64,000 nucleotides of DNA, taken from Flexilinea flocculi (GTDB lineage: Bacteria > Chloroflexota > Anaerolineae > Anaerolineales > Anaerolineaceae). Below, one piece after another: positions 3,172-25,653 of the stretch. How positions within the stretch are numbered: the stretch's first letter is position 1; each line of letters begins with the position of its first letter. The stretch lies in the NCBI RefSeq assembly GCF_001192795.1, contig NZ_DF968181.1, positions 89,603 to 153,602 of the forward strand, written 5' to 3'. The notes beneath the pieces were generated by a model, which saw only the letters and a program-made list of their open reading frames with translations, was not told where the DNA came from and did not search any database. The position numbers were made by a program, and so were the translations under genes.

Positions 3172-3555
3172 ATGACACAATTGATTTACATATGCGACGA
3201 AACGAATGTGCTTTTCAGCAAAACCGATGCCTCAAAGGACGAAATCTTAAAAAAAATGGAGGATCATCAATGGAAATTTCCATTCCGCTACGAAACGCCA
3301 AAGGTGCTGCAGATCGACGGCTTGTTTGTCATCTATGGTCAGAGCCAGGAGACCTTGTTCCATCTGTTGACTCCTCAGCAAATAAAGATCGTGCGGCGCC
3401 TGGCATGTGGTGAATCTGCCAGTCAGATTGCGGTCGCCATGCGAATCAGTACGGATACCGTCAATTATCACATCAAGGAAGCCAAGAAAAAACTGCATGT
3501 TGATACCCGCAATGAGCTGATCGCACTGTATTGCCGGGAAACGCCCTTTGAATGA
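3172..3555 (+). CDS. Orphan LuxR/GerE-type HTH transcription regulator
   Basis: This 127-residue protein has a C-terminal GerE/LuxR helix-turn-helix domain (about 64-122). It shows the usual LTPQQIKIVRRLACGESASQ opening and a TVNYHIKEAKKKLHV recognition helix. The N-terminal 60 residues are not a receiver domain, because no phospho-acceptor Asp/Lys pattern is seen, and I cannot assign them. A near-consensus promoter at 3095-3123 and a CAGGA ribosome-binding site precede the ATG, so it is probably transcribed alone. Two large hairpin repeats begin right after the stop codon. It probably binds DNA as a dimer; its target could be the secreted-protein genes downstream, but nothing in the sequence proves that. 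Confidence 0.8.
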   Translation: MTQLIYICDETNVLFSKTDASKDEILKKMEDHQWKFPFRYETPKVLQIDGLFVIYGQSQETLFHLLTPQQIKIVRRLACGESASQIAVAMRISTDTVNYHIKEAKKKLHVDTRNELIALYCRETPFE

Positions 3556-8843: not shown

Positions 8844-10121
8844 ATGGAAGAAAAAGAAAAACAAGCTGAACATAACGATTCGAATTCCATCCATCCGATT
8901 GATAAAACAGAATTACCTGAAGATGATGCACCGGTGGTGATCCCGTCTGCTCACCGGATTAAGTTGCTGCGTCGTAAAAATAGAAAAGAAAAAAAAGGTA
9001 TTGGCTGGATGTTATTCTATGGGATTACTATTGGGCTGATCTCAGCTTCAATTATTTGGTATGCTTTTTATAATCATACCCAAAAACAAATTGGAATGAT
9101 GCAGATGAAACAAACTGCGGAAAGTGGGATTCATAACCGTCAAATTGCCGCTTTAGAAGAAACGATTACTGGTTTGGATTCTTATTCCTCAGATTTGAAA
9201 GATCGGGCAGAGACACTGCAGCATGAGTGGACGCGTTCTGAGAAAGAATTGCTCCTTTTAGCGAAATGGATTACTCCTTCTGCAACGCCGCGTCCGACTG
9301 AAACAATCCAGCCAACTCAAACACCTTTAATATTATGGACAATTCCCCCATTAACTGACTCCGAACCGAACGCTGCAGGCAATCAAGCGGAAGCCAGTGA
9401 AATTCCAGTAACATCCGGGATGGTTAAAATTCCTGCGGGAAATTTCATGATGGGATCCGATGCTGCAGATGCGCATGCTGATGAAAAACCGCTGCATGAA
9501 GTCTGGTTACATGATTTTTGGATTGATAAGACACCAGTGACCAATCAAGCTTATCAACGATGTGTTGATTCCGGTAGTTGTTCAGAGCCGGCGGATCAGA
9601 GCAGTAAAAGCCGTTCAGATTATTTTCAAAATCCAGCTTATGCAAATTATCCGGTGGTCAATGTCGACTGGAATCAGGCAAATGCTTTCTGCAATTGGAA
9701 GGGGAAACGCCTTCCTACAGAAGCAGAGTGGGAAAAAGCTGCAAAAGGAAATGATGATCGAATCTATCCTTGGGGGAACATTTCACCGGATGAGTATCGT
9801 GTTAATTTTGATAACCAAATTGGTGATACGGTTGAGGTCGGAAAATATCTGGCTGGAAAAAGTCCTTATGGTGTATTGGATATGGCTGGAAACGTCTGGG
9901 AATGGGTTTCTGATTGGTATTCAGCAACCTATTATCAGGATATCGGTACTGCATTGATTTCCAATCCGAAGGGACCGGAAAATGGAGATTACCGAGTTCT
10001 TCGCGGTGGATCCTTTGGCAGCAGAGACTGGTATTTGCGAGTCTCTGTTCGATCCGGTAATTATGCGACATCCATCTCAAACAGCCGCGGTTTCCGCTGT
10101 GCCTTTTCGGAGGAAAAGTAA
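8844..10121 (+). CDS. Membrane-anchored FGE-sulfatase (SUMF1)-domain protein
   Basis: This 425-residue protein has a charged cytoplasmic N-terminus (1-50) and one transmembrane helix (about 52-78, LFYGITIGLISASIIWYAF). A short coiled-coil-like stretch (85-140), a Thr-Pro-rich linker (ATPRPTETIQPTQTP) and a formylglycine-generating-enzyme-like domain (about 195-423) follow. Domain hallmarks are IPAGNFMMGSD, DEKPLHEVWLHDFWIDKTPV, WNQANAFCNWKGKRLPTEAE, PWGN, DMAGNVWEWVSDWY, RVLRGGSF and the terminal SRGFRCAF. The domain would sit outside the cell. The twin active-site cysteines of true sulfatase-activating enzymes are not evident, so a binding or other modifying role is more likely. No sulfatase gene lies nearby. 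It is preceded by a weak AGGACAGG ribosome-binding site. Confidence 0.85.
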   Translation: MEEKEKQAEHNDSNSIHPIDKTELPEDDAPVVIPSAHRIKLLRRKNRKEKKGIGWMLFYGITIGLISASIIWYAFYNHTQKQIGMMQMKQTAESGIHNRQIAALEETITGLDSYSSDLKDRAETLQHEWTRSEKELLLLAKWITPSATPRPTETIQPTQTPLILWTIPPLTDSEPNAAGNQAEASEIPVTSGMVKIPAGNFMMGSDAADAHADEKPLHEVWLHDFWIDKTPVTNQAYQRCVDSGSCSEPADQSSKSRSDYFQNPAYANYPVVNVDWNQANAFCNWKGKRLPTEAEWEKAAKGNDDRIYPWGNISPDEYRVNFDNQIGDTVEVGKYLAGKSPYGVLDMAGNVWEWVSDWYSATYYQDIGTALISNPKGPENGDYRVLRGGSFGSRDWYLRVSVRSGNYATSISNSRGFRCAFSEEK

Positions 10122-10264: not shown

Positions 10265-10777
10265 ATGAAAGGCAGCAAAAAAATTATCGATGAGATCGTG
10301 GAACGCTATGCTTCAGATCCGGGCGGATTGATTCCGGCATTATTGAAGATCCATGAAACATTTGGCAGCATCCCTGAGGAAGCGTATCCTGTCCTGTCAC
10401 AAAAATTTTCTGCTACCCGGCTTCAGATTTTGAAGATACTTAATTTCTATGACGACTTCACTTCGGATCCCAGGAAGAAAAATGTTATTCGTATTTGTGA
10501 TGGCTTTACTTGCAACGATAAAGGCAGTCATTATTTAATGGAAAAAATGAAACTGATGTTTGAAACCAGAAAAAAAATGAGCGTTGGGCAGGAAATATAT
10601 TCTGTCGAATCGATTCCCTGCCAGGGTTTATGCGGATTCGGACCGATTATGATTGTTAACAACCAGGTTTACATCGCTGTAACCGCCGAAAAAGCGGATA
10701 AAATTTTGTCAGAATTTTTTATTGAACCAACTTTACCGAAAAACAGCAATATTAAATATGGGAAGAATTACTTGTAG
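10265..10777 (+). CDS. NuoE/HydC-like [2Fe-2S] thioredoxin-fold protein
   Basis: This 170-residue protein matches the 24-kDa NADH dehydrogenase subunit family. A helical N-domain (GGLIPALLKIHETFGSIPEEA) is followed by a thioredoxin-like ferredoxin domain. The four cluster ligands are present as CDGFTC and CQGLC. It would pass electrons to or from the flavoprotein encoded next. GGAG lies 7 bases before the ATG. The last residues (about NIKYGKNYL) and the TAG stop fall inside a dispersed hairpin repeat whose left arm starts at 10772. The repeat has therefore replaced or extended the original C-terminus. The next gene starts 182 bases further on the same strand. Confidence 0.85.
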   Translation: MKGSKKIIDEIVERYASDPGGLIPALLKIHETFGSIPEEAYPVLSQKFSATRLQILKILNFYDDFTSDPRKKNVIRICDGFTCNDKGSHYLMEKMKLMFETRKKMSVGQEIYSVESIPCQGLCGFGPIMIVNNQVYIAVTAEKADKILSEFFIEPTLPKNSNIKYGKNYL

Positions 10778-10820
10778 TTGTGTTAGTTTTACGCTTCGCG
10801 TAAAACCAACACAACTACAA
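10772..10820. repeat. Hairpin repeat copy 5, overlapping the NuoE-like stop codon
   Basis: Arms 10772-10794 and 10798-10820 (23 bp, one mismatch) flank a TTC loop. The apex TTTTACGC/GCGTAAAA carries a compensated change from the common TTTTGCGC/GCGCAAAA. The outer arms are AAATATGGGAAGAATT on the left (inside the gene) and GTCCATATTTCGAATCGCTG on the right. Confidence 0.9.
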
Positions 10821-10959
10821 TCTTTCTCTATTTATTTGGAAAGATTGTCCATATTTCGAATCGCTGACCGAAAAGCCTGGGATTTGTCCCCGACAAAAAA
10901 AGATGAAAAGGACAGGCGTAAGTCCTTAGCCAATCAACGACTGAAAAGAAATAAAAAAA

Positions 10960-13926
10960 ATGAATGATCAAGAGCAATCGTCTGATTTATTAAACCAATT
11001 GACGCGTCAAATGTATCAGGATCATGATCCTGCAAAACCGACGGTCACGATATGTTTATTCGAAAATGGAGAGGGGCTTGAAGAAGTAAATCTTCTAAAA
11101 GCTTTTGAAAAAGCTGTCAAGAAACGGAGAGTTAAAATCAACGTGGATATGATGGAGACTCCCATCAGTGGCATTTCGGAATTCAGTCCTGTGGTAATTC
11201 TTTCTCCAACGAATCAATCGTTTACGCAGGTTCATTTGGATGAAGTCGATCCGATTATCGATCATTTTGTGGCAGAACTAAAAAAAACAGGATTGTTTTT
11301 TGCGGATCCTCTTTCTGCTGCAGAAGACGAAACGAAATCGACGAGCCATACGCAATTATCAGATTCTCAAAAAAACACAATCGGCAGCGCTTTAATGGGT
11401 GCTTTCATTCTGGGTGTTCGCAAGATTAAGAAGAAATCCAAAAATAAAAAAAAGTCCGAAAAGAAAGCGGATGTTTTGCAGAATGAATCGTCTGTCTTCA
11501 AAGAGCCGCAGGATTCATCTCATCTGCCGGTGGATTCTGTTCACCCATCCGCTGTTCCGATTTCCGATAAACAGGCTGTTGCTGCTGATCATGAAGAGAA
11601 AATTGCGGCTGATCAACAAGCTGAAAAAAGCGCTGATTCAAGTTCAGATTATATTCGGATGCACTCCTTTTCATTTGACGCCGAGCACGATCCTTTGATG
11701 CGAATGGATGACTGTCTTGAAACGCGAATGATTGTTTGTCCGGATTTGCTGCCGATTCTGATCCCCGGTTCCTTGAAGATCAGACCTCCTCATGAGGTCG
11801 ATCAACTGGGATTGGATCGAATTTCTGAATTTGAAACGGGGACAGCGGCAGCATTTAAAAATGAGAAAGTTACCCCCAGTTTTTCTTCAAAAGATGATCC
11901 TAAAACCATTACTGAAAGAAGGCCAGCTAATGCCTATGAGGCGGAATATTTAACCGTTTCCCATCTTTTTTTGGACTCTGCAATCTCAGATCAAGGGGCA
12001 ACTGAAATTTCATCTGAATCCAAACCGGATGACGCTATACAAAAAGAAGATACGTTAACCATAAAACGTGAGAACAATACCGGTTTTTCTTTGCTTGAAG
12101 AATGGTTTCCAAATCTTAAAACGGAAGATCATCTTCCTTGCATCTCGATCTGTTCAGGTGATGGTTGCAGCATTCAGAATGGACAGAAAGTTTTTGAAGA
12201 ATTTCATCGTGTCCTGACTTCTATGCATATGGAGACCAATGTGAGGCTCAAGCAGGTCGGCTGCAGCGGTTTCTGCGGACAAGGACCGCTGGTCATGCTG
12301 CTGCCTTCCAGAATCCTGTATGTTAAAGTCAGACCGGCTGATGTTCAGCAAATCATTGAAGAAACACTGCTCAAGGGAAATTTAATCCGTTCTCTGTTAT
12401 ATCGGAATCCGGAAAATCAGAAGCTAATTCCTCTTGAAAGAGAAATCCCCTTTTTTCAATATCAAACCCGCGTCTTGACCGAATCTGTGATGGATTTGGA
12501 TCCGGAATCTTTGGAGGATTACATCCGGCATGGTGGCTATCAGGCATTGGCGAATGTCCTATCTTCTGATCCAAACCAGGTGATTGAGGAAATCAAAAAA
12601 TCCAATTTACGGGGAAGAGGCGGCGCCGGCTTTCCAACCTGGAAAAAGCTGGATATTTGCCGATCCACGGCAAGTGAAACAAAATATGTGATTGTAAATG
12701 GTGATGCGGGCGATCCTGGCTCGATGGAAGACCAGGCATTGATGAGTTCCAATCCACATTTGATTCTGGAAGGTTTGATCATCGGCGCCTATGCAGTTCA
12801 GGCTTCCAAAGGATATATTTATATCCGAAACAAATATTCGAGTGCGGTGAAAAGGATGGAGAAAGCTGTTAAAGAAGCAGCTGAGCACGGGCTGATTGGA
12901 AACAATATTTTAAACAGCGGCTTTCATTTTCAAATTGTTATTCAACTGGCTGCAAGCGCATATATAACCGGCGAAGAAATGAATCTGATTCATTCTATTG
13001 AGGGATTTGTTGGTGAACCGCGAAAGAAACCTCCTTACCCAGCTGTTTCCGGTTTGTGGGGAAAGCCAACGGTTATCTGTAATGTCAAGACATGGGGCAG
13101 TATTCCTCCCATACTGAATCATGGCGGAGAATGGTTTTCCAGGATGGGGACAGCACAAAGCGGGGGTACAACGCTGGTTTCTCTGACCGGTGCTGTCCGT
13201 CATAGCGGTTATGCAGAAATTCAGCTAGGAACATCCTTGAAAACACTGGTAGAAAAAATCGGCAGTGTTCCAGCGGGTCATCCGATCAAGGCAGTGCAAA
13301 TTGGTGCTCCCTTTGGGGCGATCCTCCCCGCAGATCATCTGAATACCCCCTATGATTTCATATCGCTTGAAGGTGGCAGATCATTTCTGGGTTCCGTAAT
13401 TCACAGTTTTCCGGAAAACACCTGTATTGTTCAGGAAGTGCAAAAACGATTAAAGTTCGCAGAAAAAGAATCCTGTGGACGTTGCACAGCCTGTCTGGCA
13501 GGTATTCCGCAGATGATCGGCTTGATGGATTTGTTAATTCATAATAAGGCTGACAAATTGACACTGGTCCGTTTAAAAGAAATTGCCACCCAGATGCAAA
13601 ATGCGGCAAAATGTAATTTCGGAAAAAATGTGCCCATCATGGTTTTATCGTCGTTGAATTCATTTTATGCAGAGTATGAGGCGCACTGCACGGGTGAATG
13701 CCCCGGCGGACAATGCCCTACATTAACAGTTTATTCAATTGATATCAATTCATGCAGCGCTTGCGGTCGCTGCCAATCGGTATGCCCGACAGAAGCAATT
13801 TCCGGATCCGATCATGACGCAAGGAATATCGATGCAACGCTCTGTGTTGCGTGCGGATTTTGTTTTCGCGTTTGTGATGATCATGCAATCCACTATTCGA
13901 AATATGGGGAGGGTTCTTTATCGTAG
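10960..13926 (+). CDS. HydB/NuoF-like flavoprotein with extra N-terminal NuoE-like domain and C-terminal ferredoxin
   Basis: This is a 988-residue protein. Residues 25-115 form a thioredoxin-like domain without cluster cysteines. A long charged, low-complexity linker (about 120-385) follows. Residues 393-470 are a NuoE-like [2Fe-2S] domain (CSGDGC, CSGFCG). Residues 515-900 are NuoF-like: RGRGGAGFPT at the nucleotide site, the FMN motif written NGDAGDPGSMED instead of NADEGxPG, GEEMNLIHSIEG, and the 4Fe-4S ligands C839, C842, C845 and C885. Residues 930-975 carry two [4Fe-4S] clusters. The layout is like HydB of electron-bifurcating hydrogenases, but no hydrogenase H-cluster gene is present. 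The last 11 residues and the TAG lie in a hairpin repeat. The ribosome-binding site is weak. Confidence 0.85.
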   Translation: MNDQEQSSDLLNQLTRQMYQDHDPAKPTVTICLFENGEGLEEVNLLKAFEKAVKKRRVKINVDMMETPISGISEFSPVVILSPTNQSFTQVHLDEVDPIIDHFVAELKKTGLFFADPLSAAEDETKSTSHTQLSDSQKNTIGSALMGAFILGVRKIKKKSKNKKKSEKKADVLQNESSVFKEPQDSSHLPVDSVHPSAVPISDKQAVAADHEEKIAADQQAEKSADSSSDYIRMHSFSFDAEHDPLMRMDDCLETRMIVCPDLLPILIPGSLKIRPPHEVDQLGLDRISEFETGTAAAFKNEKVTPSFSSKDDPKTITERRPANAYEAEYLTVSHLFLDSAISDQGATEISSESKPDDAIQKEDTLTIKRENNTGFSLLEEWFPNLKTEDHLPCISICSGDGCSIQNGQKVFEEFHRVLTSMHMETNVRLKQVGCSGFCGQGPLVMLLPSRILYVKVRPADVQQIIEETLLKGNLIRSLLYRNPENQKLIPLEREIPFFQYQTRVLTESVMDLDPESLEDYIRHGGYQALANVLSSDPNQVIEEIKKSNLRGRGGAGFPTWKKLDICRSTASETKYVIVNGDAGDPGSMEDQALMSSNPHLILEGLIIGAYAVQASKGYIYIRNKYSSAVKRMEKAVKEAAEHGLIGNNILNSGFHFQIVIQLAASAYITGEEMNLIHSIEGFVGEPRKKPPYPAVSGLWGKPTVICNVKTWGSIPPILNHGGEWFSRMGTAQSGGTTLVSLTGAVRHSGYAEIQLGTSLKTLVEKIGSVPAGHPIKAVQIGAPFGAILPADHLNTPYDFISLEGGRSFLGSVIHSFPENTCIVQEVQKRLKFAEKESCGRCTACLAGIPQMIGLMDLLIHNKADKLTLVRLKEIATQMQNAAKCNFGKNVPIMVLSSLNSFYAEYEAHCTGECPGGQCPTLTVYSIDINSCSACGRCQSVCPTEAISGSDHDARNIDATLCVACGFCFRVCDDHAIHYSKYGEGSLS

Positions 13927-13985
13927 TGATGGCTTTGTGTTTTGCTTACAACCATTGCGACAGCAAATACTTAATGATTGATTCG
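13895..13985. repeat. Degenerate hairpin repeat, overlapping the NuoF-like stop codon
   Basis: The left outer arm ATTCGAAATATGGGGAGG (13895-13912) lies inside the coding frame. A decayed hairpin (GTGATGG and CCATTGCGAC as partial arms, with a TTTGTGTTTTGC apex remnant) and GATTCGAATAGC follow. Further family fragments (CACATTTCGAATTACCGG) reach about 14103. Confidence 0.6.
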
Positions 13986-14119
13986 AATAGCAAGTCTATT
14001 TTTGAAATTACTGTTATGCAATTCGTTTTCTATCAATGAATCCAAAAATAGCGTAGCCTTTCAAGTCAATCACGGAACGCCTCTCACATTTCGAATTACC
14101 GGTTATAAAAAAGTGAGTA

Positions 14120-16141
14120 ATGATGGTAGAAATTACGATTAATCATCAGAAAATTCAGGCAGAAGAAGCGACAACGATTTTAGAGGTGGCAAGAGATCAT
14201 GGATTTAAAATTCCGACATTTTGCCATATCAATCAAATCGCTCCTTCCGGCTCATGCCGCATGTGTCTTGTATCCGTGATATTCGCTGATGGGACGAGAA
14301 AAATCGTCTCTTCATGTGATACGAATATTGAAGAAGGCATGGTAATTTTTACAGATTCCATCGAAGCTATTGATGCACGCGCTGAGATGGCCAATTTATT
14401 GCTTTCTCTTTGTCCCACACATCCGGAAGTTCAGAAGATTGCAGCACATTACGGTATTCAAGAACCATCATTCGTGATTAACACGCCAAAAACAAATTGT
14501 ATTTCCTGTGGAAATTGTGTTCAGATTTGCCAAACAAAAGGGCGAAAAGTGATTGATTTTTATGGCAAAGGGAACCAGCGGTTTGTCTCGACAAAGAATG
14601 GGAAACCTTCCCGTGAATGTGATTCCTGTAATCAATGCATCCACTATTGTCCAACCGGAGCAGTTACAGAAAGTCTTGGATTGAACATCGGGCAGCGGAT
14701 TAAGAAAAAGAATCACAATCAGGTGTTGAATCGCCGTTTTGCCAACAAATTGTTTTTGTCCCTGTTCCTGATTTTGATGTTGATGTCAGCAGCAGGGATA
14801 TCACTCAGTTTTATACCCAATCAGTTATTTTCTCTTGCTGATCCATTTCAGGCTATCATGACTGCCATTGCCGGTCGTAAAGTATTAATCCAATATTGGC
14901 CTGCGTTGGTTGTCTTGATTATGACTGTGTTCTTAGGCCGGTTCTGGTGCGGATGGATTTGCCCGACAGGTACGCTCCTTCAATCCTACGGAAAGAACGA
15001 TCGAAGAATACGAGCTCAAAATTTTCGCCGCTTTAAATGGATTTTTCTGATTGTTTTTTTCGTTTTTGCAATATTTGGCAGTCTCGCTTTTCTATGGTTG
15101 GATCCAATATCGATGGCAATACAACCGATACTTTTGCTTTTTAAACCGGCATCCGAATATCTTGATCAAGGATTCTTAAAAACATTTCGATTTGTCGGTG
15201 TGTATTGGTGGCTGACTGCTTTGCCAATGCTATTCGCACTGATCTTGAATTTTATAGAGAAAAGATTTTGGTGCCGGTATATTTGTCCGCTTGGTGGATT
15301 GCTTGGGCTTTTATCCAAATTCTCTCTAAATAAACGTCATGTGAATCAGAATGCTTGTTCCCGATGTGATCAGTGCTCAAAAATTTGCCCGACAGGAGCC
15401 ATCGATGCCGATAAAGATTATCGAACGGATCCTGCAGAGTGTATCCTTTGCATGGATTGTGCTGATGTTTGTCCGAAGTTTGCAATCGACTTTACCGATG
15501 AGAAAGTTTTCCAATTTCACAACGAATTTGATCCGGGAAGACGTGAATTTGTTGGAACGGTACTTTTGGGTTCTGCCGCTGCAGGGTTAATGACGTTGAA
15601 AGACAAAGCGCTGATCCCAGAGTCAAAAAATGTATTAAGACCGCCTGGAAGTTTGCGCCCGAATGAAATGAAGCCGGGAACCTTTTTGATGTTATGTGTG
15701 CGCTGTGGGCAATGCGTTCTGGCTTGTCCGCAAAACATCATAAAACCTTCCATTCTTGAAAGCGGATGGGAAGGAGTCAATACGCCGGTGATTCATTTTG
15801 CGGGAAGTTTTTGCGATCCTTCTTGTAATGCGTGCGGTACGGTATGCCCCAGTGGTGCGATTTTACCATTCACAAAACTCGAAAAAACAAAATATCCAAT
15901 CGGTCTGGCTCAGGTAAATTATTCTGCATGTATACGCTGCAATTTATGCGTAGCTGCATGCCCTGAACATGCTTTTACAGAAGTAACCGTAATTGGCAGA
16001 GAAGGATTATTTCCGCAGGTGGATGTGCAAAAATGCAGCGGCTGCGGAAAATGTCTGGTCGTTTGTCCTAATTACTCCGATGGTGCTATTGAAATTTATC
16101 CAGCAGGACAACGAACGAAATTTCAGAATTTTCCTGGATAA
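14120..16141 (+). CDS. Fused NuoG-N / NapH / NapG-like membrane polyferredoxin
   Basis: This 673-residue protein begins with a NuoG/HydA-like head: [2Fe-2S] ligands C35, C46, C49 and C66, then two [4Fe-4S] sets (C127-C137 and C167-C177). Residues 205-460 resemble NapH/NosR membrane proteins. They have four transmembrane helices, two CxxxCP motifs (FWCGWICPTG near 277, FWCRYICPLG near 385) and two [4Fe-4S] sets (C413-C423, C441-C451). Residues 470-665 resemble NapG, with a GRREF segment plus hydrophobic stretch and four more [4Fe-4S] sets (C526, C565, C604 and C639 groups). It could carry electrons between the upstream NADH-type flavoprotein and the membrane or quinone pool. No catalytic hydrogenase, nitrate reductase or cytochrome domain is present. 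I know of no named enzyme with this order. Confidence 0.85.
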   Translation: MMVEITINHQKIQAEEATTILEVARDHGFKIPTFCHINQIAPSGSCRMCLVSVIFADGTRKIVSSCDTNIEEGMVIFTDSIEAIDARAEMANLLLSLCPTHPEVQKIAAHYGIQEPSFVINTPKTNCISCGNCVQICQTKGRKVIDFYGKGNQRFVSTKNGKPSRECDSCNQCIHYCPTGAVTESLGLNIGQRIKKKNHNQVLNRRFANKLFLSLFLILMLMSAAGISLSFIPNQLFSLADPFQAIMTAIAGRKVLIQYWPALVVLIMTVFLGRFWCGWICPTGTLLQSYGKNDRRIRAQNFRRFKWIFLIVFFVFAIFGSLAFLWLDPISMAIQPILLLFKPASEYLDQGFLKTFRFVGVYWWLTALPMLFALILNFIEKRFWCRYICPLGGLLGLLSKFSLNKRHVNQNACSRCDQCSKICPTGAIDADKDYRTDPAECILCMDCADVCPKFAIDFTDEKVFQFHNEFDPGRREFVGTVLLGSAAAGLMTLKDKALIPESKNVLRPPGSLRPNEMKPGTFLMLCVRCGQCVLACPQNIIKPSILESGWEGVNTPVIHFAGSFCDPSCNACGTVCPSGAILPFTKLEKTKYPIGLAQVNYSACIRCNLCVAACPEHAFTEVTVIGREGLFPQVDVQKCSGCGKCLVVCPNYSDGAIEIYPAGQRTKFQNFPG

Positions 16142-17910: not shown

Positions 17911-20781
17911 ATGAAAATTTGCAGCAAGAAACTTATTTTGGTATTTGTAATTTGTCTTGATTTTTCTCTCAGTTTGTTATTCGTGACTTTTGTATCGGCT
18001 CCTCGGCAGGTGAAGGTCGGTTATTTTTTAATGAATCAGTTTCAGGAACTGGATCAATCCGGACTTTATCACGGTTATAGTTTTGATTATCTGCAAAAGA
18101 TTCGGCAGTATGCTGAGTGGGATATTACTTTTGTGCAATGTGAATATCAAGAGTGCCTTCGCCTTCTGGCTGATGGAGAAATTGATCTCATAAATTATGT
18201 CGAAAAAAATCAAAAAACAGAAAACAATTTTTTATTCTCTCTCAGAGCATCAGGAACTGAATATGCCGCGATTTCGGTCTTAGAAGAGAATTTTCGTAAA
18301 TATCCGGCAAATCTAAAAATACCTTCGGGATTTCGATTGGGTGTACTTAGCGGTTCAAAATTTACAGATGCTATTGAAGACAACCTGACTGAATTTGAAC
18401 AAACTCCCGAACTGTTGGAATACCCACAAGAAAAGCTGTATTCTGCTTTGGAAAGCGGAGAAATTGATGGTATTCTTTCCTCCTCAATAACAGTATTCCC
18501 CGGAACTAAAGTAATATCCCGTTTTTCATTGCGGCCATTTTATTTTGTTGTAAGAAATGGAAATGACCGGCTTTTGAAAGAATTAAATCGTGCGATGAAT
18601 TTGATCAGTTTGCATGAGCCCTTATTCGTAAATCGTTTATATGAGAAATATTATGCTTATGCAGACAGCGAAGTCTTATATCTCACGAAAGAGGAAACGG
18701 ATTTTCTGTCCGATAAGAAGACATTCCGTGTGATTATCGCTCCGGATGGAGACCCGGTCTCCTATTATTTAAATGGTTCTTATCATGGAATTATTGCTGA
18801 CTTTTTGAACAAAACTGCCAGGGATCTGAATGTGGAGATTGAACCTGTTGAGGCAGCATCGTTTGAAGAAGCGCTGGATAAGATCCGAAATGGTGAAGCA
18901 GACATCCTCGGAGATTTTTTGATAGACGAAGGGTTTGCTGAGAAAAACAATCTACAATTATCGCCAGCATTTCTTGAAAGTCAGGTTGTTGCTGTTTATA
19001 AAAAAGGAAATGATGTATCTGTAAAGAATCCTGTAAAAATTGCAGAACCGAATAACTATCAACCGCTATCATCGTCATTACGTGCGATTTATTCCAAATC
19101 AGAGGTAACTTATTATGAAAGCGACGCGGCTTGTCTGGATGCAGTAAACACGGGTGGACAAGATATCAGTTTTATCAATATTTGGGCGGCACAAAAAAAT
19201 TTAGGGAAGATGAAATATCACGATTTAGTGATTGATCCCAATCAGGGATTCACCCTGCAATATTCATATGCTGTCAGTCGAAACGCTGATCCACGATTGG
19301 TCCAAATTCTGAGAAAGGCAATCAATTCAATCAGTTCTTTTCAACGGTTTTCTATCATCAATCAGAATGTGTTTATTACACCGCAGAAAGTTCGATTGAT
19401 TGATTTCATCAACACACAGCCAGCTTATGCTTTCTTTATTTTTCTTGTATTTCCTATACTTTTTTTGTATTTGCTTGCTTATCGGATCGATTCGCATCAG
19501 AAAGATAAAAAACAGATATTTAACCTGGCGTTTGTCGATGATATGACACAATTAAAAAATCTTCACTGGATGGAGAAAAATGCGGGAAGAATCATCGAGG
19601 AAAATCGATCGAAGAAATTCGCTTTCATCTCATTCGATTTGGACCGTTTTGACATCATTAATGAATATTATGGAAGAAAAACCGGTGATCAGATTATTCA
19701 ATATATGGCGGATACGCTGATGTCGATTGACGTCCCCGGTATGATCTGTACAAGAGTAAAAGCAGATCATTTCCTTTGTCTGGTACCTTATGAATCCAGA
19801 GAAATTCTTGAAAAGAAAATTAGTGATATTAAGTCAAAGAAGAATTCATACAGTGGGAATGATACCGTAATAAAATTTGGGATTCATGTTGGTGTTTATA
19901 TTCTTTCAGATTCCGATCAGGATATCACAGCATGCATCGACAATGCTGAAACCGCACGCAGAGAAGCCAGAAATGTATCATCGGGTATTGTTTTCTTTGA
20001 TGATTATTTAAAAGATAAGCTTCGCGTATATAAACATATTGAAGAGATGCAAGAAAGCGCACTGGAAAATCATGAATTTGAAGTATATTATCAGCCAAAA
20101 TATAATATGGAAGAAAATTCAATTATCGGCGCAGAAGCGCTGATTCGTTGGAATGATCCGGTCCATGGGATCAGAATGCCATCAGATTTTATTCTGATCT
20201 TTGAAAAAAATGGCTTTATCATCCAAATCGATTTTTTTGTTCTGGAAGAAGTCTGTAAATTCCTTCGTTCAAGGATAGATGCAGGTGAAAAAGTCGTTCC
20301 AATTTCAGTTAATCAGTCGCGTGTTCATCTTTCTGAAAAACACTATGTCCAGCGGCTGGGAGAGATCATCAGAAAATATTCAATTCCGGATGGCCTGATT
20401 GAATTAGAATTAACCGAAACAGCAATCTCTGAGATTGACGATGTGGAAAATATCCTGAATCAGGCAAAAGCTTTGAATTATCGAATTTCAATCGACGATT
20501 TTGGAACCGGATATTCGTCTTTAACTATGCTGAATCGGGTTCCTCTGGATGCCATTAAAATTGACCGGAATTTCCTGATAGAGTCGAATAACTCCAAAAA
20601 GACTCGTGAAATTATTCGTCTGGTTGTCGAGATGGCTCATGCTTTGGGCATCCAGGTCGTTTGTGAGGGCGTTGAAAAACAGGATCAGGCTGATTTCTTG
20701 ATGAGTATCGGCTGCAGATTTGGACAAGGGTTCCTTTTTTCGAAACCAATCCCGATTAATGATTTTATGCGAATTTTATGA
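17911..20781 (+). CDS. Sensor c-di-GMP phosphodiesterase: two solute-binding domains, degenerate GGDEF, EAL
   Basis: The protein has 956 residues. A signal-anchor N-terminus is followed by two periplasmic amino-acid-binding-protein-like domains (about 30-255 and 265-490). A transmembrane helix (about 500-522) follows, then a GGDEF-fold domain (540-700) and an EAL domain (708-950). The GGDEF signature is replaced by VKADHF near residue 616, so cyclase activity is unlikely. The EAL domain keeps its catalytic motifs (EALIRW near 741, VNQSR, ELELTETA, IDDFGTGYSSL, KIDRNF, CEGVEKQ). It should hydrolyse c-di-GMP in response to an extracellular small molecule, perhaps an amino acid. It is paralogous to the protein encoded at 22744-25653 on the other strand. 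The start follows GAAAGCC, a modest ribosome-binding site. Confidence 0.9.
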   Translation: MKICSKKLILVFVICLDFSLSLLFVTFVSAPRQVKVGYFLMNQFQELDQSGLYHGYSFDYLQKIRQYAEWDITFVQCEYQECLRLLADGEIDLINYVEKNQKTENNFLFSLRASGTEYAAISVLEENFRKYPANLKIPSGFRLGVLSGSKFTDAIEDNLTEFEQTPELLEYPQEKLYSALESGEIDGILSSSITVFPGTKVISRFSLRPFYFVVRNGNDRLLKELNRAMNLISLHEPLFVNRLYEKYYAYADSEVLYLTKEETDFLSDKKTFRVIIAPDGDPVSYYLNGSYHGIIADFLNKTARDLNVEIEPVEAASFEEALDKIRNGEADILGDFLIDEGFAEKNNLQLSPAFLESQVVAVYKKGNDVSVKNPVKIAEPNNYQPLSSSLRAIYSKSEVTYYESDAACLDAVNTGGQDISFINIWAAQKNLGKMKYHDLVIDPNQGFTLQYSYAVSRNADPRLVQILRKAINSISSFQRFSIINQNVFITPQKVRLIDFINTQPAYAFFIFLVFPILFLYLLAYRIDSHQKDKKQIFNLAFVDDMTQLKNLHWMEKNAGRIIEENRSKKFAFISFDLDRFDIINEYYGRKTGDQIIQYMADTLMSIDVPGMICTRVKADHFLCLVPYESREILEKKISDIKSKKNSYSGNDTVIKFGIHVGVYILSDSDQDITACIDNAETARREARNVSSGIVFFDDYLKDKLRVYKHIEEMQESALENHEFEVYYQPKYNMEENSIIGAEALIRWNDPVHGIRMPSDFILIFEKNGFIIQIDFFVLEEVCKFLRSRIDAGEKVVPISVNQSRVHLSEKHYVQRLGEIIRKYSIPDGLIELELTETAISEIDDVENILNQAKALNYRISIDDFGTGYSSLTMLNRVPLDAIKIDRNFLIESNNSKKTREIIRLVVEMAHALGIQVVCEGVEKQDQADFLMSIGCRFGQGFLFSKPIPINDFMRIL

Positions 20782-20822
20782 TTTTTTTTGTGATGTAGCT
20801 ATTTAAAGAATAGGAAAGATTA

Positions 20823-20873
20823 TTTGATATGGTGTTGTTTCCCCGTTTGGCGCAAAAACAACACAACATCAAA
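20823..20873. repeat. Hairpin repeat copy 8
   Basis: TTTGAT (20823-20828) pairs with ATCAAA (20868-20873), and GTGTTGTTT (20832-20840) pairs with AAACAACAC on the right arm. The apex is CCCCGTTTGGCGC. A decayed right outer arm AATTCTGATTTGCTGC follows. It sits between the phosphodiesterase and the next co-directional gene. Confidence 0.75.
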
Positions 20874-20980
20874 TCTTGTCTTTTTTTAATAGAGATTTTA
20901 CAAATTCTGATTTGCTGCAAATGATCGGTTTGTGAAAAGCACATAAATTTGGAACAATTCCAAAAAAAATAGATGAGAGG

Positions 20981-22723
20981 ATGATTTTGATAAATAAGGA
21001 TGTAAGACAAGAACTGCTCGATCAATATCCGATTCTTTTGTTTGATCTTGCCTGTAACCATGAGAAAAACCTGACGATCCTGCATATGAATTCATATTTT
21101 TATGAATTGCTTGGAATTGATAAGGATTCTTTTCCCTTGGATGGGATTCTTGCGTTTCAAACCTTGCTTTATCCAGACGATTTTCAACGATTTACAGCGA
21201 TCATTGAGAATGCCATTCAGGACGGATTATCTCACTTTGAAACTGAAATTCGCTGGATATGCTCTGATTCATCCATTTTATGGACGCGGATCCGGGGAAA
21301 TATTGAATCCTGTCGTGAGAGATTTCGGATTCATTGTTGCGGTGAGAATATTAGCGTTCAAAAAGAAATGGAAAAAGAGGCATTTTTATCAGAAGAACGT
21401 TTTCGTATTGCGCTGACTACAACATCCATCGTTATTTTCGATTACGATCCGCGGACAAAGATCTACCAATCGCTCATTGAAGCGGATATTCTTTTAGGTC
21501 TTCCGCGAAATATGGAAAATGTACCTGAATCGATTGTTAAGATGGGCATTATCCATCCGGATTCCGTTGAGGAATTCTATCGGGTTTTTCAAAAAATTTC
21601 GGATGGCGCTCTTTTCTCATCGGCGATCATTCGGGCAAATCGAATCGGCATGGATATTTGGATCAGATTATCTCTGACAAATATTCTTGATCATGACGGA
21701 AAATCCATTCGTATTATCGGTTTCGAATCGGATATCACCAGAGAGATGAATGCCAAGCTTGCATTTATCAGAGAAAATCAGTATCGATCTGCGCTTTTAT
21801 CCAATGCATTGGCTGCGTATGAGATCAACTTTTCAAAAAATCGTATCTTGAAAATGGAAGGCGATTGGCTGGCCAGATTTCAGGGGCAGGTTTTTGAAAA
21901 ATATTCCGATGCTGTGAATTTGATTGCCGAGACCGTGATTCATTCAGATGATCGCAAACAGTATCTGAAAACTTACGGATGGCAATCCGTGGTCGACGCT
22001 GTTCATCATGGATCGACAGAAATCAAACTGGAACACAGACGGCTCAATGCCGCCAATGAAATGATTTGGGCGCTTTCAGAATTATATTTATTTACGGATC
22101 AGACTCAAAATGAAGTATTGGGTTTTTTCTTTGTGATGGATATCCATCAACAAAAGACCAGAGAGCTGGCTCTGAAAAGAAAAGCGGAACATGATTCTTT
22201 GACTGGACTATTAAATAAAGAACACACGGAACGGTTGCTCCAGAACTTCCTGTCCGATCAGAGTTCTGATGAGAAACACGGATTGATGGTGATTGACCTG
22301 GATAATTTTAAAAGCGTTAATGATACTTTCGGCCACCAGAAAGGTGATATGGTTCTGGCAGAATTGGGCAGATTACTCTATGAAACCTTCCGATCGACTG
22401 ATATAATCGGGCGCGTCGGCGGAGATGAATTCGTTGTGTTTTTGAAAAATGTCACATCGATGACGAAAACTGTGGATTTGGCCAGGAATCTATGCTCTCT
22501 GGTGACCAGTCAATTTAATACCTTTGATCAAAATTTTTCAATCAGCAGCAGTGTTGGTATTTCGGAATTTCCTGAAGACGGGAAAACCTATGAAGAGCTT
22601 TTCCGGAAAGCAGATATCGCATTATATGAAGCCAAGCGACATGGAAAAAACTGCGTTTTCCGTTATGATCCATCCATGGCAGGTTGCAATTTTCCCCCGA
22701 ACGGAATCTTATCCGAAAAATGA
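20981..22723 (+). CDS. PAS-containing diguanylate cyclase (GGDEF)
   Basis: The protein has 580 residues and no signal peptide or membrane helix, so it is cytoplasmic. Residues 1-395 contain two or three PAS-like sensory domains; MNSYFYELLGID, IRWICSDSSILWTRIRG and IRIIGFESDITREMNA mark PAS and PAC boundaries. A GGDEF domain follows (about 405-570): HDSLTGLLNKE, MVIDLDNFKSVNDTFGHQKGD and an intact GRVGGDEFVVF near residue 479. An RSTD inhibitory site lies five residues before GGDEF, so product feedback inhibition is expected. It should make c-di-GMP. It lies between two EAL phosphodiesterase genes and converges with the second (20-base gap). The start follows GAGAGG very closely; a slightly later start is possible. 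Confidence 0.9.
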   Translation: MILINKDVRQELLDQYPILLFDLACNHEKNLTILHMNSYFYELLGIDKDSFPLDGILAFQTLLYPDDFQRFTAIIENAIQDGLSHFETEIRWICSDSSILWTRIRGNIESCRERFRIHCCGENISVQKEMEKEAFLSEERFRIALTTTSIVIFDYDPRTKIYQSLIEADILLGLPRNMENVPESIVKMGIIHPDSVEEFYRVFQKISDGALFSSAIIRANRIGMDIWIRLSLTNILDHDGKSIRIIGFESDITREMNAKLAFIRENQYRSALLSNALAAYEINFSKNRILKMEGDWLARFQGQVFEKYSDAVNLIAETVIHSDDRKQYLKTYGWQSVVDAVHHGSTEIKLEHRRLNAANEMIWALSELYLFTDQTQNEVLGFFFVMDIHQQKTRELALKRKAEHDSLTGLLNKEHTERLLQNFLSDQSSDEKHGLMVIDLDNFKSVNDTFGHQKGDMVLAELGRLLYETFRSTDIIGRVGGDEFVVFLKNVTSMTKTVDLARNLCSLVTSQFNTFDQNFSISSSVGISEFPEDGKTYEELFRKADIALYEAKRHGKNCVFRYDPSMAGCNFPPNGILSEK

Positions 22724-22743
22724 ATTCGGACTGTTGTTCGAAT

Positions 22744-25653
22744 TTATTGTTTTCTCCAACTGTTCTCATCAATCTGATTTTCAAAGGTTTTTTGGGAGAT
22801 CGGCTTCGAATAGAAGTATCCTTGTGCGTAGAAACATCCTACCTGTTTCATAAAATCGATATGCTTCTGCTTTTCAACCCCTTCACAAATTACTGTGACG
22901 TTGAGCACCTTTGCCATCTCAACGATTTTTTCAATAATTAAGCGTGTTCTTTCAGAATCTTCTGATTTTGTCAGGAAGTATTTATCAATTTTCAGAATAT
23001 CCAGCGGAATGTCATTCAGCAGTGTCAGCGATGAGTATCCGGATCCAAAATCATCAATTGACGTTAAAAATCCAATTTGCTTCATCTGTTCCAAAATCAC
23101 CTTTGCTGCAGCAGCATCTGAAAAGGCGGTTTCTGTAAGTTCCAGTTCAATCAATTTAGGTGGTATATTATATTTGTGCACCATATCGTGAAGCTGTTGA
23201 ACATATTGGCTTTGCGTCAGATGAGCTCTGGACTGATTGATTGAAATCGGTACAACTTTTTGATTCGAATCCAACCTCTGTCGGATCATTTTACAGACTT
23301 CTTCCACAACAAAGAAATCCAGTTGAATAATAAAACCATTTTTTTCAAAGAGCGGGACAAACTGTGAAGGAACCATGAATCCCCTGTCCATGCTGCTCCA
23401 GCGAATGAGCGCTTCTGCGCCAATTAAGGTATCATTTCGGATATCAAATTTTGGTTGGTAATATACCTGAAATTCACCGTCTCTCAAGGCTCGATCCTGG
23501 ATGTTTTCGATTGCTTTTTCCAAAGCGAGACGGTCTCTCATGTCATTATCATAGAAAACGATGGAGGTCGGATCCCCTTCCGCTTCGTGCCGAGCGGTAT
23601 CCGCGTTATCAATGGAACTGGTAATGTCGGTTCCTCCATCCGGAATCATGTAGATGCCATAATTCATACTGATCAGGATATTTTTATCTTCCGTTTGAAA
23701 ATTGCTGTAATTCCTTTTTAACTGATCGATCCAATTGATCAGATCATCCCTGGTATTATAAGGTTTAAGGCAAAGAAAATTGTCATTTTTCGACCGAACA
23801 GCAATAACTCCATCGTTTTGATAAGATTTTAAACCTTCTGCGATATTTCGTATGATTGCATAACCGGTTTCTCTGCCATAACATTCATTGATGATATCAA
23901 ATCGATTAATATCAAAAGAGATCATGGCGTATTGTGTATATCTGTCTGACAATAAAATGGAATGTGAATTTTTTTCCAACCAATAACGGTTCTTTAATCC
24001 AGTCAGTTCATCGCCATATGCGAGCGCTTCCATTCTTTTTTCAGAGTTTATTTTTGATTTTGAATAGAAAGCCAGGATACTGATAATTCCAAGGAAGATT
24101 ACTCCGATCGATGCCAGGAAAGGCTTTGGATGATCATAGAATAAATCACTGATGGTTGTCGGTTTTGATTCAATCAGTGTGTTTTGTCGGATGATCGATT
24201 GAATCTGTTCGTTGCCGATATAACCGAGCTCCTTGTTTAAAATGATAGTAAATATTTTTTCCTGATTTTCATTAATGCCCATTGAAATATTAGCAGTAAA
24301 ACTGTTGTTGAAATCAGATATTAATTTCTGATATTTTCTGTCCAATTTCAACCTTTGATAAAAATAACTGGAGACATAGGTGATATCCTGTTTCCCGTTA
24401 TTGACTGCATCCAATGCTTCCTGCGAGGATTTATATGGAATGATAATACTTCGGGGATATAACTTATGAACTTCTCTGTTGCTAAAAATATACCCTTCAA
24501 CAATTGCCAGGGATGGATTTGCGGGCAACGGTTCGTCCCGCGTAACCATACTGATCGGCATAGAGAGGTAAGGCGTTGTCAAATCGACATGATTTTCTTC
24601 CGCCCATGAATAATCATGGTCAATATCGAGGATGATGTCGGCTTCGCCATTTCGGATTTTTTGGAGCGATTCATTGTAAGAGAATGTCGGGATAAGATCG
24701 ATCCTGATATCTAAATCCTTTGAGATCAATTTGATAATATCAGCAAAAATCCCTTTATATCCGTTCTTATCCTGCCATAAAAGCGGGAAGGTCTGCGGAG
24801 AGGATACAATCCTTATTGTACCTTTTTGCTCTAAAAAAGCTTTCTCTTCTTTCGTCAGGGAAAGAGCTGTTCTTTCTGAACCATAATATTTTTCGTATAG
24901 ACGATATTCTATGCCGGGATTATTGGTTGTTATTTCCGATATTGCTTTATTAAGTTGTTGCAGCAGTTCGGTATTTCCTTTTTTTACAACAAAATAGAAT
25001 GGTTTGGTGTTAAATTGAGCGATGATCTTTTCATTTTCTTTCTTCAAAAAATTGCTTTTAACGACACCGTCCACTTTCCCGGCTTGAAGCGCTTTTTCCA
25101 TTACACTTGGATCGAAAAATAATACGGTTGAGATTTTTAGTTTATGTTCCTGACAAAAAGCAGAAAATTGGGCGTTATGATAATCACCGGAAAGAATGCC
25201 AACACGCATCCCATTAAAACTGTCATAATCATCGAGAGAATAAGACGTATTATCGCTTTTTACTGAAAGCGTTCCATAACTGGTTCCAATGCTCTGTGCT
25301 GAATAATCGAAAACCTCTGCCAATTCATCCGAGAATTGGACATTGGAAAGTAAATCGATATTTCCGTTTTTTAGATTCTGAATACAGGTATTTAAAGTTC
25401 CTCCAACATATTCATACGTCCATCCCGTATAGTTGGCTATCTCTTGAAGATAATCGTATCCGTAACCAGATCGGTTGCCATTTTTATCGAAATTGTGGTA
25501 GCCATCCAGGACGTAATATCCGACGCGGACCTTTTTGGATTCTTCCAGCGGCTTTGCCTGAATTGTAAAAAATGATGTCAGTAGGAACAGCACAGAAAAT
25601 GAGAAAATGAAATAGCCGAAACTTCTTTTTATTGGATCATTCATTTGTATCAC
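22744..25653 (-). CDS. Sensor c-di-GMP phosphodiesterase, paralogue
   Basis: This 969-residue protein has the same layout as the one at 17911-20781: signal anchor, two solute-binding-type domains (about 35-265 and 275-505), a transmembrane helix (about 513-535), a degenerate GGDEF domain and an EAL domain. The GGDEF position reads RSKNDNFLCL, so it lacks the signature. The EAL motifs are intact (EALIRW near 747, SINQSRAHL, IELELTETAF, IDDFGSGYSSL, LKIDKYF, CEGVEKQ). Binding-domain residues differ clearly from the paralogue (for example VDGVVKSNF), which suggests another ligand. The convergent position next to the GGDEF gene points to one signalling locus. AGGAGTG precedes the ATG. A 16-base palindrome lies 53 bases upstream. 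Confidence 0.9.
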   Translation of the reverse strand: MIQMNDPIKRSFGYFIFSFSVLFLLTSFFTIQAKPLEESKKVRVGYYVLDGYHNFDKNGNRSGYGYDYLQEIANYTGWTYEYVGGTLNTCIQNLKNGNIDLLSNVQFSDELAEVFDYSAQSIGTSYGTLSVKSDNTSYSLDDYDSFNGMRVGILSGDYHNAQFSAFCQEHKLKISTVLFFDPSVMEKALQAGKVDGVVKSNFLKKENEKIIAQFNTKPFYFVVKKGNTELLQQLNKAISEITTNNPGIEYRLYEKYYGSERTALSLTKEEKAFLEQKGTIRIVSSPQTFPLLWQDKNGYKGIFADIIKLISKDLDIRIDLIPTFSYNESLQKIRNGEADIILDIDHDYSWAEENHVDLTTPYLSMPISMVTRDEPLPANPSLAIVEGYIFSNREVHKLYPRSIIIPYKSSQEALDAVNNGKQDITYVSSYFYQRLKLDRKYQKLISDFNNSFTANISMGINENQEKIFTIILNKELGYIGNEQIQSIIRQNTLIESKPTTISDLFYDHPKPFLASIGVIFLGIISILAFYSKSKINSEKRMEALAYGDELTGLKNRYWLEKNSHSILLSDRYTQYAMISFDINRFDIINECYGRETGYAIIRNIAEGLKSYQNDGVIAVRSKNDNFLCLKPYNTRDDLINWIDQLKRNYSNFQTEDKNILISMNYGIYMIPDGGTDITSSIDNADTARHEAEGDPTSIVFYDNDMRDRLALEKAIENIQDRALRDGEFQVYYQPKFDIRNDTLIGAEALIRWSSMDRGFMVPSQFVPLFEKNGFIIQLDFFVVEEVCKMIRQRLDSNQKVVPISINQSRAHLTQSQYVQQLHDMVHKYNIPPKLIELELTETAFSDAAAAKVILEQMKQIGFLTSIDDFGSGYSSLTLLNDIPLDILKIDKYFLTKSEDSERTRLIIEKIVEMAKVLNVTVICEGVEKQKHIDFMKQVGCFYAQGYFYSKPISQKTFENQIDENSWRKQ

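Follow-up and report, generated by a model that had tools for sequence, protein, structure and literature searches.

A Bfu-like electron-transfer module fused to a NapH-NapG-type iron-sulfur chain in Flexilinea flocculi and related bacteria

BfuB, BfuC and the different types of BfuA, the parts of electron-bifurcating Bfu enzymes, were defined in PMC9304861 (papers are cited here for the passages concerned), and Mbh-Bfu and Nuo-Bfu described therein have BfuABC tied to a membrane part. In this study, we analysed a window of 64,000 nt from the anaerobic bacterium Flexilinea flocculi (the whole stretch of contig NZ_DF968181.1 from position 89,603 to 153,602), in which three consecutive genes, called E, F and G in the following, likewise join a Bfu-like module to a membrane part, but without the hydrogenase or complex I membrane arms of Mbh-Bfu and Nuo-Bfu. 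While membrane Bfu forms, tungsten oxidoreductases (WORs) of the twin-arginine translocation (Tat) type and NapH-like systems have already been described, no description of a BfuA-NapH-NapG fusion as in G was found in the open literature of PubMed Central (supplements and most subscription papers lie outside it), and the main text of PMC9304861 contains no match to "NapH". In our reading, which we regard as reasonably probable, the genes encode a membrane-anchored Bfu-type complex that would wire cytoplasmic NADH (reduced nicotinamide adenine dinucleotide) and ferredoxin to extracytoplasmic low-potential enzymes, the copy in the window being modified and having lost its partners.

The three open reading frames (ORFs), originally predicted as NuoE, an enlarged HydB/NuoF and a fusion protein, were recovered at the predicted positions with the domains described. 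Domains, cluster ligands, gene order and the losses reported below were read directly from the sequence. The parts of the module are as follows:

10265..10777, plus strand: E, BfuC / NuoE-like [2Fe-2S] subunit of 170 aa with a 2Fe-2S_thioredx domain; four-Cys pattern present
10960-13926, plus strand: F, BfuB-like protein (enlarged HydB/NuoF) in two parts, extension aa 1-385 and core aa 386-988
10960..12114, plus strand: N-terminal extension of F, aa 1-385, described by an AlphaFold2 model and the ratio of nonsynonymous to synonymous substitution rates (dN/dS) given below
12115..13926, plus strand: BfuB core of F, aa 386-988, with B5, the flavin mononucleotide (FMN) loop GRGGAGF and Lys, Glu95 replaced by Ala, B1, B2 (Cys, His, Cys, Cys), B3 and B4
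14120-16141, plus strand: G, head-NapH-NapG fusion protein of 673 aa
14120..14719, plus strand: Type 2 BfuA-like head of G, aa 1-200, with one [2Fe-2S] and two [4Fe-4S], lacking the HxxxCxxC insertion
14720..15481, plus strand: NapH-like part of G, aa 201-454, with four hydrophobic regions, two CxxxCP and two [4Fe-4S]
15533..15652, plus strand: twin-arginine segment and RPPG junction of G, aa about 472-511; RR in the alignment, NapG profiles start there
15653..16141, plus strand: NapG-like part of G, aa 512-673, with four [4Fe-4S], predicted to be extracytoplasmic

Profile searches revealed in F a Complex1_51K domain, NADH_4Fe-4S, a C-terminal Fer4 pair and a 2Fe-2S thioredoxin-like domain, and in G a Fer2_4 head followed by matches to NapH (aa 197-461) and NapG (aa 471-661); all NuoF, NapH and NapG matches of both proteins scored under the curated NCBIfam cut-offs. 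The PDB chains closest to F were the BfuB chains of 7t2r, 9mqx, 7p5h and 8a6t, i.e., of bifurcating hydrogenases and of 9mqx, whose chain D is an aldehyde:ferredoxin oxidoreductase (AOR) and which we infer to be the WOR of A. mobile. F aligned with 7t2r_B, 9mqx_B and 7p5h_B over some 580-600 residues, including the C-terminal [4Fe-4S] pair and the histidine of B2, and all six Fe-S clusters of the Bfu core could be assigned in the window, namely B1-B5 in BfuB (B2 with its His) and C1 in BfuC. The ligands of B1-B5 (B2 as Cys-x-His-Cys-Cys) together with the FMN loop were also present in two loci of the window's own clade (L014 and L015; L denotes loci and G with a number genomes) and in all 11 fusion loci outside this clade, the alignment being limited to the first 640 residues for G874 and the first 420 for G783. 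The four-Cys pattern of BfuC was found in 12 of 12 E proteins aligned as well as in L072 and L075. E and F are BfuC- and BfuB-like, and the set of parts is matched more closely by the Bfu family than by the "NADH:quinone complex". The ligands of the entry module are those of a bifurcating BfuBC core, with two C-terminal [4Fe-4S] and the histidine of B2, so that ferredoxin would be expected as a partner in addition to NADH, and the module of the window may bifurcate between NAD and ferredoxin. The Ile at the fifth position of B2 was considered as a defect and dropped, because this variable position carries Val in the genome's own HydB1 and is thus not discriminating.

The extension of F is a trait of the window's clade. 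An AlphaFold2 model from six rows (predicted local distance difference test, pLDDT, of 53.8 overall, 70-88 in the blocks of residues 11-110 and very low confidence for aa 113-390) displayed at aa 24-110 a domain without cluster cysteines, whose order of strands and helices is that of the [2Fe-2S] domain at 394-471. This long N-terminal extension with its thioredoxin-like fold was absent from the 11 other fusion loci, in which F measures 617-671 aa; in one of them (G874), F is fused to G in a single frame of 1267 aa.

Protein G contains 41 cysteines, all of which except C98 belong to one [2Fe-2S], eight [4Fe-4S] of the CxxCxxCxxxC type and two CxxxCP motifs, so that these motifs and the hydrophobicity bear out the originally predicted clusters and four-helix membrane domain. 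All 40 motif cysteines were conserved in 11 of 18 fusion rows and 39 in four more, the rest being L017 (cut by its contig end), G176 and G783. One ligand Cys of the first [4Fe-4S] in the NapH part (C416 in the window) is a Trp in the fusion rows of G515, G486, G464 and G504. The head matched 8a6t_A and 9mqx_A, lacks the HxxxCxxC insertion seen in 8a6t_A and has A1, A2 and A4 but neither A3, which we take to be the His-ligated cluster, nor A5, as in a Type 2 BfuA. Additional subunits, which in Type 2 enzymes feed a third substrate into BfuA, were not found for the window, while candidates exist in its relatives; because the fused NapH-NapG part takes their place, we class the module as Bfu-like, its head being of Type 2, and not as a Type 2 enzyme.

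Four regions of G exceeded the Kyte-Doolittle threshold (206-234, 254-282, 301-341 and 357-379), flanked by 6, 7 and 3 Lys+Arg on the presumed inner and 2 and 3 on the outer side. They are followed by two [4Fe-4S] and then by a segment consisting of RR near aa 475, a weaker hydrophobic region (best mean 1.22 against a threshold of 1.5) and RPPG. With four transmembrane regions, two CxxxCP and two [4Fe-4S], the middle part has the features of NapH (profile 121.8 bits, curated cut-off 234). The last part (NapG profile 57.7 bits, cut-off 269) has four clusters after the internal RR segment, which might serve as a Tat signal. Of 30 aligned rows, 26 carry the RR pair; L015 and G837 have KR instead, G168 has FR and G176 has RF. 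TatC is encoded in the genome (196 bits). Since G has this internal twin-arginine segment, NapG profiles start there and TatC is present, the last four clusters would lie outside the cell and the NapG-like half is probably extracytoplasmic. The Fe-S chain therefore probably continues beyond the membrane, at which the polyferredoxin of the original prediction came to its end. No flavinylated FMN-binding domain was seen in G.

This arrangement bears on the quinone acceptor proposed at first, and on the explanation of the proteins as an NADH:quinone oxidoreductase with NapH as the quinone site. Though NapH has been suggested to oxidise the quinol in nitrate respiration (PMC5928378) and an electron entry of the NuoEF type is present, four further clusters past the twin-arginine segment are unneeded for quinone reduction. 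In addition, the only UbiA-family match in the genome (97% complete; of the quinone genes only this family was searched) scored as a decaprenyl-phosphate phosphoribosyltransferase (241 bits, cut-off 234) and not as a quinone prenyltransferase, so that a role of quinone is unsupported and this explanation seems very improbable. NQR2/RnfD had no match in the genome. Its one NuoH-family match lies elsewhere, in a cluster for a membrane complex similar to hydrogenase-4 and complex I, in a stretch without NuoEFG, so that no NuoH/L/M/N arm with NuoEFG was found. The large subunit of this cluster matched NuoD best, below the cut-off, and the small one NuoB, over two NuoB subfamily cut-offs; based on the subunit order and a gene similar to maturation proteases, we read the cluster as a putative group-4 hydrogenase. 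Two [FeFe]-hydrogenase sets with HydB-like partners (TIGR02512 over its cut-off in both) were also detected. In the window itself, a Pfam scan limited to 22 further ORFs recognised neither a hydrogenase or nitrate reductase gene nor a Nuo membrane gene, in line with the first description, and NapA of the periplasmic nitrate reductase was likewise absent from the scanned ORFs of the window, to which this search was confined.

Using G as query (E <= 1e-60) against overlapping genome samples of the phylum, class and family, we obtained matches in 6 of 400, 32 of 396 and 20 of 147 genomes, respectively, of which 2, 8 and 11 encode the head together with NapH in a single frame. As the union of the samples gives 17 such genomes, that of the window among them, the fusion is real and not an assembly artefact, a possibility that had been left to be checked; all other matches covered the NapH-NapG part only. 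A contig scan seeded by patterns yielded 27 loci, eight of which (L014-L021) were opened. Four (L014-L017, all Chloroflexota) contained the fusion, L018 (Zipacnadia) and L019 (a deltaproteobacterium) a headless NapH-NapG, and L020 and L021 E, F and an unfused head beside genes read as 2-oxoacid oxidoreductase-like. By their coordinates, L016/G668, L014/G778, L015/G782 and L017/G772 are the same places, and each pair was counted once; ORF starts in these and the other relatives' loci were called mechanically. Headless NapH-NapG fusions next to a DUF362-type protein were observed in several lineages of Chloroflexota (L079, L080, L082, L083, L124, L125 and L126), this neighbour being present in 7 of the 12 headless loci fetched (one identified by Pfam, six by BLAST to that one).

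Neighbourhood stretches were fetched around 16 + 10 places and comprised 11 fusion loci outside the window's clade, where candidates for outer partners stand beside the module. In eight of these (G515, G486, G464, G871, G873, which is cut, G874, G875 and G876), the gene immediately upstream of E is RdhA-like, and in G504 such a gene is located about 7 kb off. The eight copies scanned, seven of them from fusion loci, scored 198.9-214.9 bits with TIGR02486 (cut-off 160.35), and PceA was the best PDB match (9.3e-55). In an alignment of 12 of the 13 known copies, Tyr and Asn were found in 11/11 covering rows and Arg in 12/12, residues that presumably form the corrinoid site as in PceA. With this profile, these residues and two C-terminal clusters, the upstream gene resembles RdhA. 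An RR pair was seen in 10 of 11 aligned rows. An AOR and its Fe-S partner gene were present in nine of the 11 stretches, the contig ending in the other two (G515 and G873), and the Fe-S partner exceeded the cut-off of the TAT model (16.7) in all five copies with a complete N-terminus (16.8-23.0). Hence, the absence of a catalytic subunit nearby, stated originally, holds for the stretches of the window's clade, but not for its relatives.

In the g453 clusters (G871, G875, G876 and G874), the order is Fe-S, AOR, ThiF-like, small membrane protein, small lipoprotein, RdhA-like, E, F, G and MoaA-like, with CxxCH in the lipoprotein of G871 and G875. In the one such cluster checked with profiles (L117), MoaA was over the cut-off and the ThiF-like and cytochrome-like matches were below. 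These clusters, which bring together AOR, Tat-type Fe-S partner, lipoprotein (CxxCH in L117 and L119), RdhA-like, Bfu-NapHG and MoaA-like genes, lie at L117:3-11502 and in L118, L119 and L121.

Topology, direction of flow, partners and bifurcation can be proposed from these features as follows. F and E, as BfuB and BfuC, would exchange electrons with NAD(H) at the FMN, and the C-terminal [4Fe-4S] pair would be the site of exchange with ferredoxin. Within a single chain, the electrons would then pass from the Type 2 BfuA head to the NapH membrane domain and on to the NapG-type string, whose four [4Fe-4S] would lie outside the cell. In the relatives, electrons of NADH and reduced ferredoxin may flow outward to the extracytoplasmic reductive-dehalogenase-like protein, and/or electrons from an AOR-family enzyme exported with its Tat-signal Fe-S subunit may flow inward. 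Of the two, we favour outward transfer to the RdhA-like enzyme in the relatives, although these genes would agree with inward flow from AOR as well. A purely inward complex, in which the exported AOR oxidises aldehydes, Bfu makes NADH and reduced ferredoxin and the RdhA-like protein is accessory, appears rather unlikely to us. It would agree with the order Fe-S, AOR, E, F, G in G668 and G604, with the pairing of Bfu and AOR chains in 9mqx and with bifurcating and Tat-type WORs as known classes (PMC13328260), but the gene next to E is RdhA-like and not AOR in eight of 11 loci, and the sole Class V WOR tested according to PMC13328260 had no aldehyde activity. As the partner links proposed here come from gene neighbourhood, the fusion might also merely anchor the Bfu module to the membrane beside independent genes; the conservation of the motif cysteines in all but three of the fusion rows makes this hardly credible. 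More tentatively, and with some doubt on our part, the outward reading can be extended to a quinone-free transmembrane Bfu complex, in which NADH and reduced ferredoxin would be confurcated and one covalent Fe-S wire would lead to an outer reductive-dehalogenase-like corrinoid enzyme shared with an exported AOR, the Flexilinea copy being re-used for another outer acceptor.

In a tree of the NapH-NapG part, the window's clade formed one branch of seven rows (support 99/99) and was joined with five g453 rows at 99/97, a sisterhood that assumes a root among the DUF362-linked rows; G176 forms a long branch and the row of L017 is cut. No AOR or RdhA-like gene was found in the seven loci of this clade, with stretches reaching 0.1 to 10 kb upstream, and AFOR had no match in the genomes G000 and G176, compared to 7 to 15 matches each in six other genomes. 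The nicotinamide site seems to have changed stepwise: while all 11 fusion loci outside the clade retain Asn-Asp-Glu95, the window and L014 have Glu95->Ala and one Asn->Cys, and L015 has Asp94->Asn and Glu95->Ala. The FMN loop, Lys and GEE are kept in the window. L017, G176, G774 and G783 showed no E gene, and the NapH-NapG ligands are retained throughout the clade except in G176 (L017 being cut). In G783 (L123:8891-11293), a frame of 800 aa joins a part similar to the N-terminus of F straight to NapH-NapG; the BfuA head is missing and all 28 NapH-NapG cysteines are kept.

Several of our results weigh against a complex with outer partners, in particular for the window. Gene neighbourhood does not prove a complex, and the RdhA-like gene is missing in the stretches of G668 and G604, though AOR is present. 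The TAT model was over its cut-off in only one of eight RdhA-like copies (L071 with 17.2; L073 and L119 reached 15.9, and no score is listed for the other five). The genome of the window shows no outer partner (0 AFOR, 0 PF13486, the latter being a weak test because it missed the known RdhA-like copy of G486), and its single match to an RdhA-like query proved to be QueG (226.6 bits, cut-off 200). Glu95 of the nicotinamide site, which is Ala in the window, has been reported to be invariant in complex I, where a water molecule bridges it to the nicotinamide (PMC6560083). As an E95Q variant of E. coli still reacts (PMC11677225), NADH use by the window's copy is uncertain, not excluded; of the NADH entry proposed originally, the core ligands stand, with ferredoxin expected in addition. 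Furthermore, the FMN loop and B5 are gone in L017 and most or all of the core in G774, G783 and G176 (with an uncertain alignment for these), and the AlphaFold model of G from seven rows was poor (pLDDT 46.3, predicted template modelling score, pTM, 0.28). Finally, the dN/dS values between the window and L014, which in themselves speak in favour of the module, are rough because dS is near saturation (0.94-1.25); they were 0.20 for E, 0.22 for F and 0.11 for G (by part, 0.27 for the F extension, 0.17 for the F core and 0.12 for G aa 471-673).

The graded loss of the core and of E in the clade, together with the headless G783 protein, would agree with the copy in the window being a remnant whose NADH module is disappearing, so that only NapH-NapG would still work, with its electrons coming from ferredoxin via F or from a different donor. 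We consider this possible but unlikely, since all cluster ligands remain in the window, L014 and L015 and dN/dS is low for E, the F core and G. Because of this low dN/dS and the remaining NapH-NapG ligands, the module is maintained under purifying selection, and the copy in the window looks like a modified descendant of the relatives' form. With both partners missing and the nicotinamide pocket altered, its present role might be a ferredoxin-driven outward transfer, which is a guess.

The clade also shares neighbouring genes, each in some of its loci:

3172..3555, plus strand: small GerE/LuxR-type protein, upstream, with relatives upstream in L015, L069 and L122
3833-5560 and 5973-8330, plus strand: two fn3 proteins, upstream, with relatives upstream in L014, L015, L017, L069 and L122
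16483..17199, minus strand: DUF5343 gene, downstream, with relatives downstream in L014, L015, L069, L122 and L123

The fn3 proteins were considered as outer partners and rejected; they have conserved cysteines and no CxxCH. Upstream of the operon (8844-10121), a protein with an FGE domain and an N-terminal hydrophobic stretch is encoded, which has a 77% identical counterpart at the same place in L014, while the L015 and L017 stretches lack one. The gap of 182 bases between E and F, which comprises only 51 bases in L014, harbors a 17-nt hairpin (10778-10814) with one copy elsewhere in the genome at three mismatches. Further downstream (17911-25653), a PAS-GGDEF protein is encoded between two SBP_bac_3-GGDEF-EAL proteins.

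Compared to described systems, the module stands closest to Bfu Type 2 enzymes such as Wor-Bfu (PMC9304861) and PDB 9mqx, with which it shares BfuB, BfuC and a Type 2 BfuA head and, in the relatives, an adjoining AOR with its Fe-S subunit. In contrast to these, BfuA is fused to NapH-NapG, the relatives' AOR Fe-S subunit has a Tat signal, and the window lacks AOR and Glu95. Of the complex of new composition originally predicted, the Nuo/Hyd-type entry joined to a membrane polyferredoxin was not found described, while its parts agree better with Bfu enzymes than with an NADH:quinone enzyme. With the NapGH and NapH-like systems for extracytosolic electron transfer (PMC8238504), G has in common the four-helix NapH with two CxxxCP and two [4Fe-4S] as well as the NapG-like part with a twin-arginine segment and four [4Fe-4S], but it is one chain with a BfuA head and shows no flavinylated FMN-binding domain. 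RdhC/PceC of reductive dehalogenase operons (PMC5928378) is likewise a NapH/NosR-like membrane part with CxxxCP beside RdhA; it differs in possessing an FMN-binding domain but not the two C-terminal [4Fe-4S], whereas G is joined to a cytoplasmic NADH/ferredoxin module. The supply of electrons to reductive dehalogenases from quinol at -74 mV is described as largely unresolved (PMC5928378), and a fused Fe-S wire from such a module would, if true, answer this need for low-potential electrons and constitute a further membrane Bfu form beside Mbh-Bfu and Nuo-Bfu. Among tungsten oxidoreductases, Class IV comprises the bifurcating WorABC and Class V a Tat-signal WorS with membrane association (PMC13328260, whose main text has no match to "Chloroflex", "NapH" or "dehalogenase"); the window's relatives combine features of both and would join what is listed apart, while the window shows the fate of such a module after the loss of its partners.

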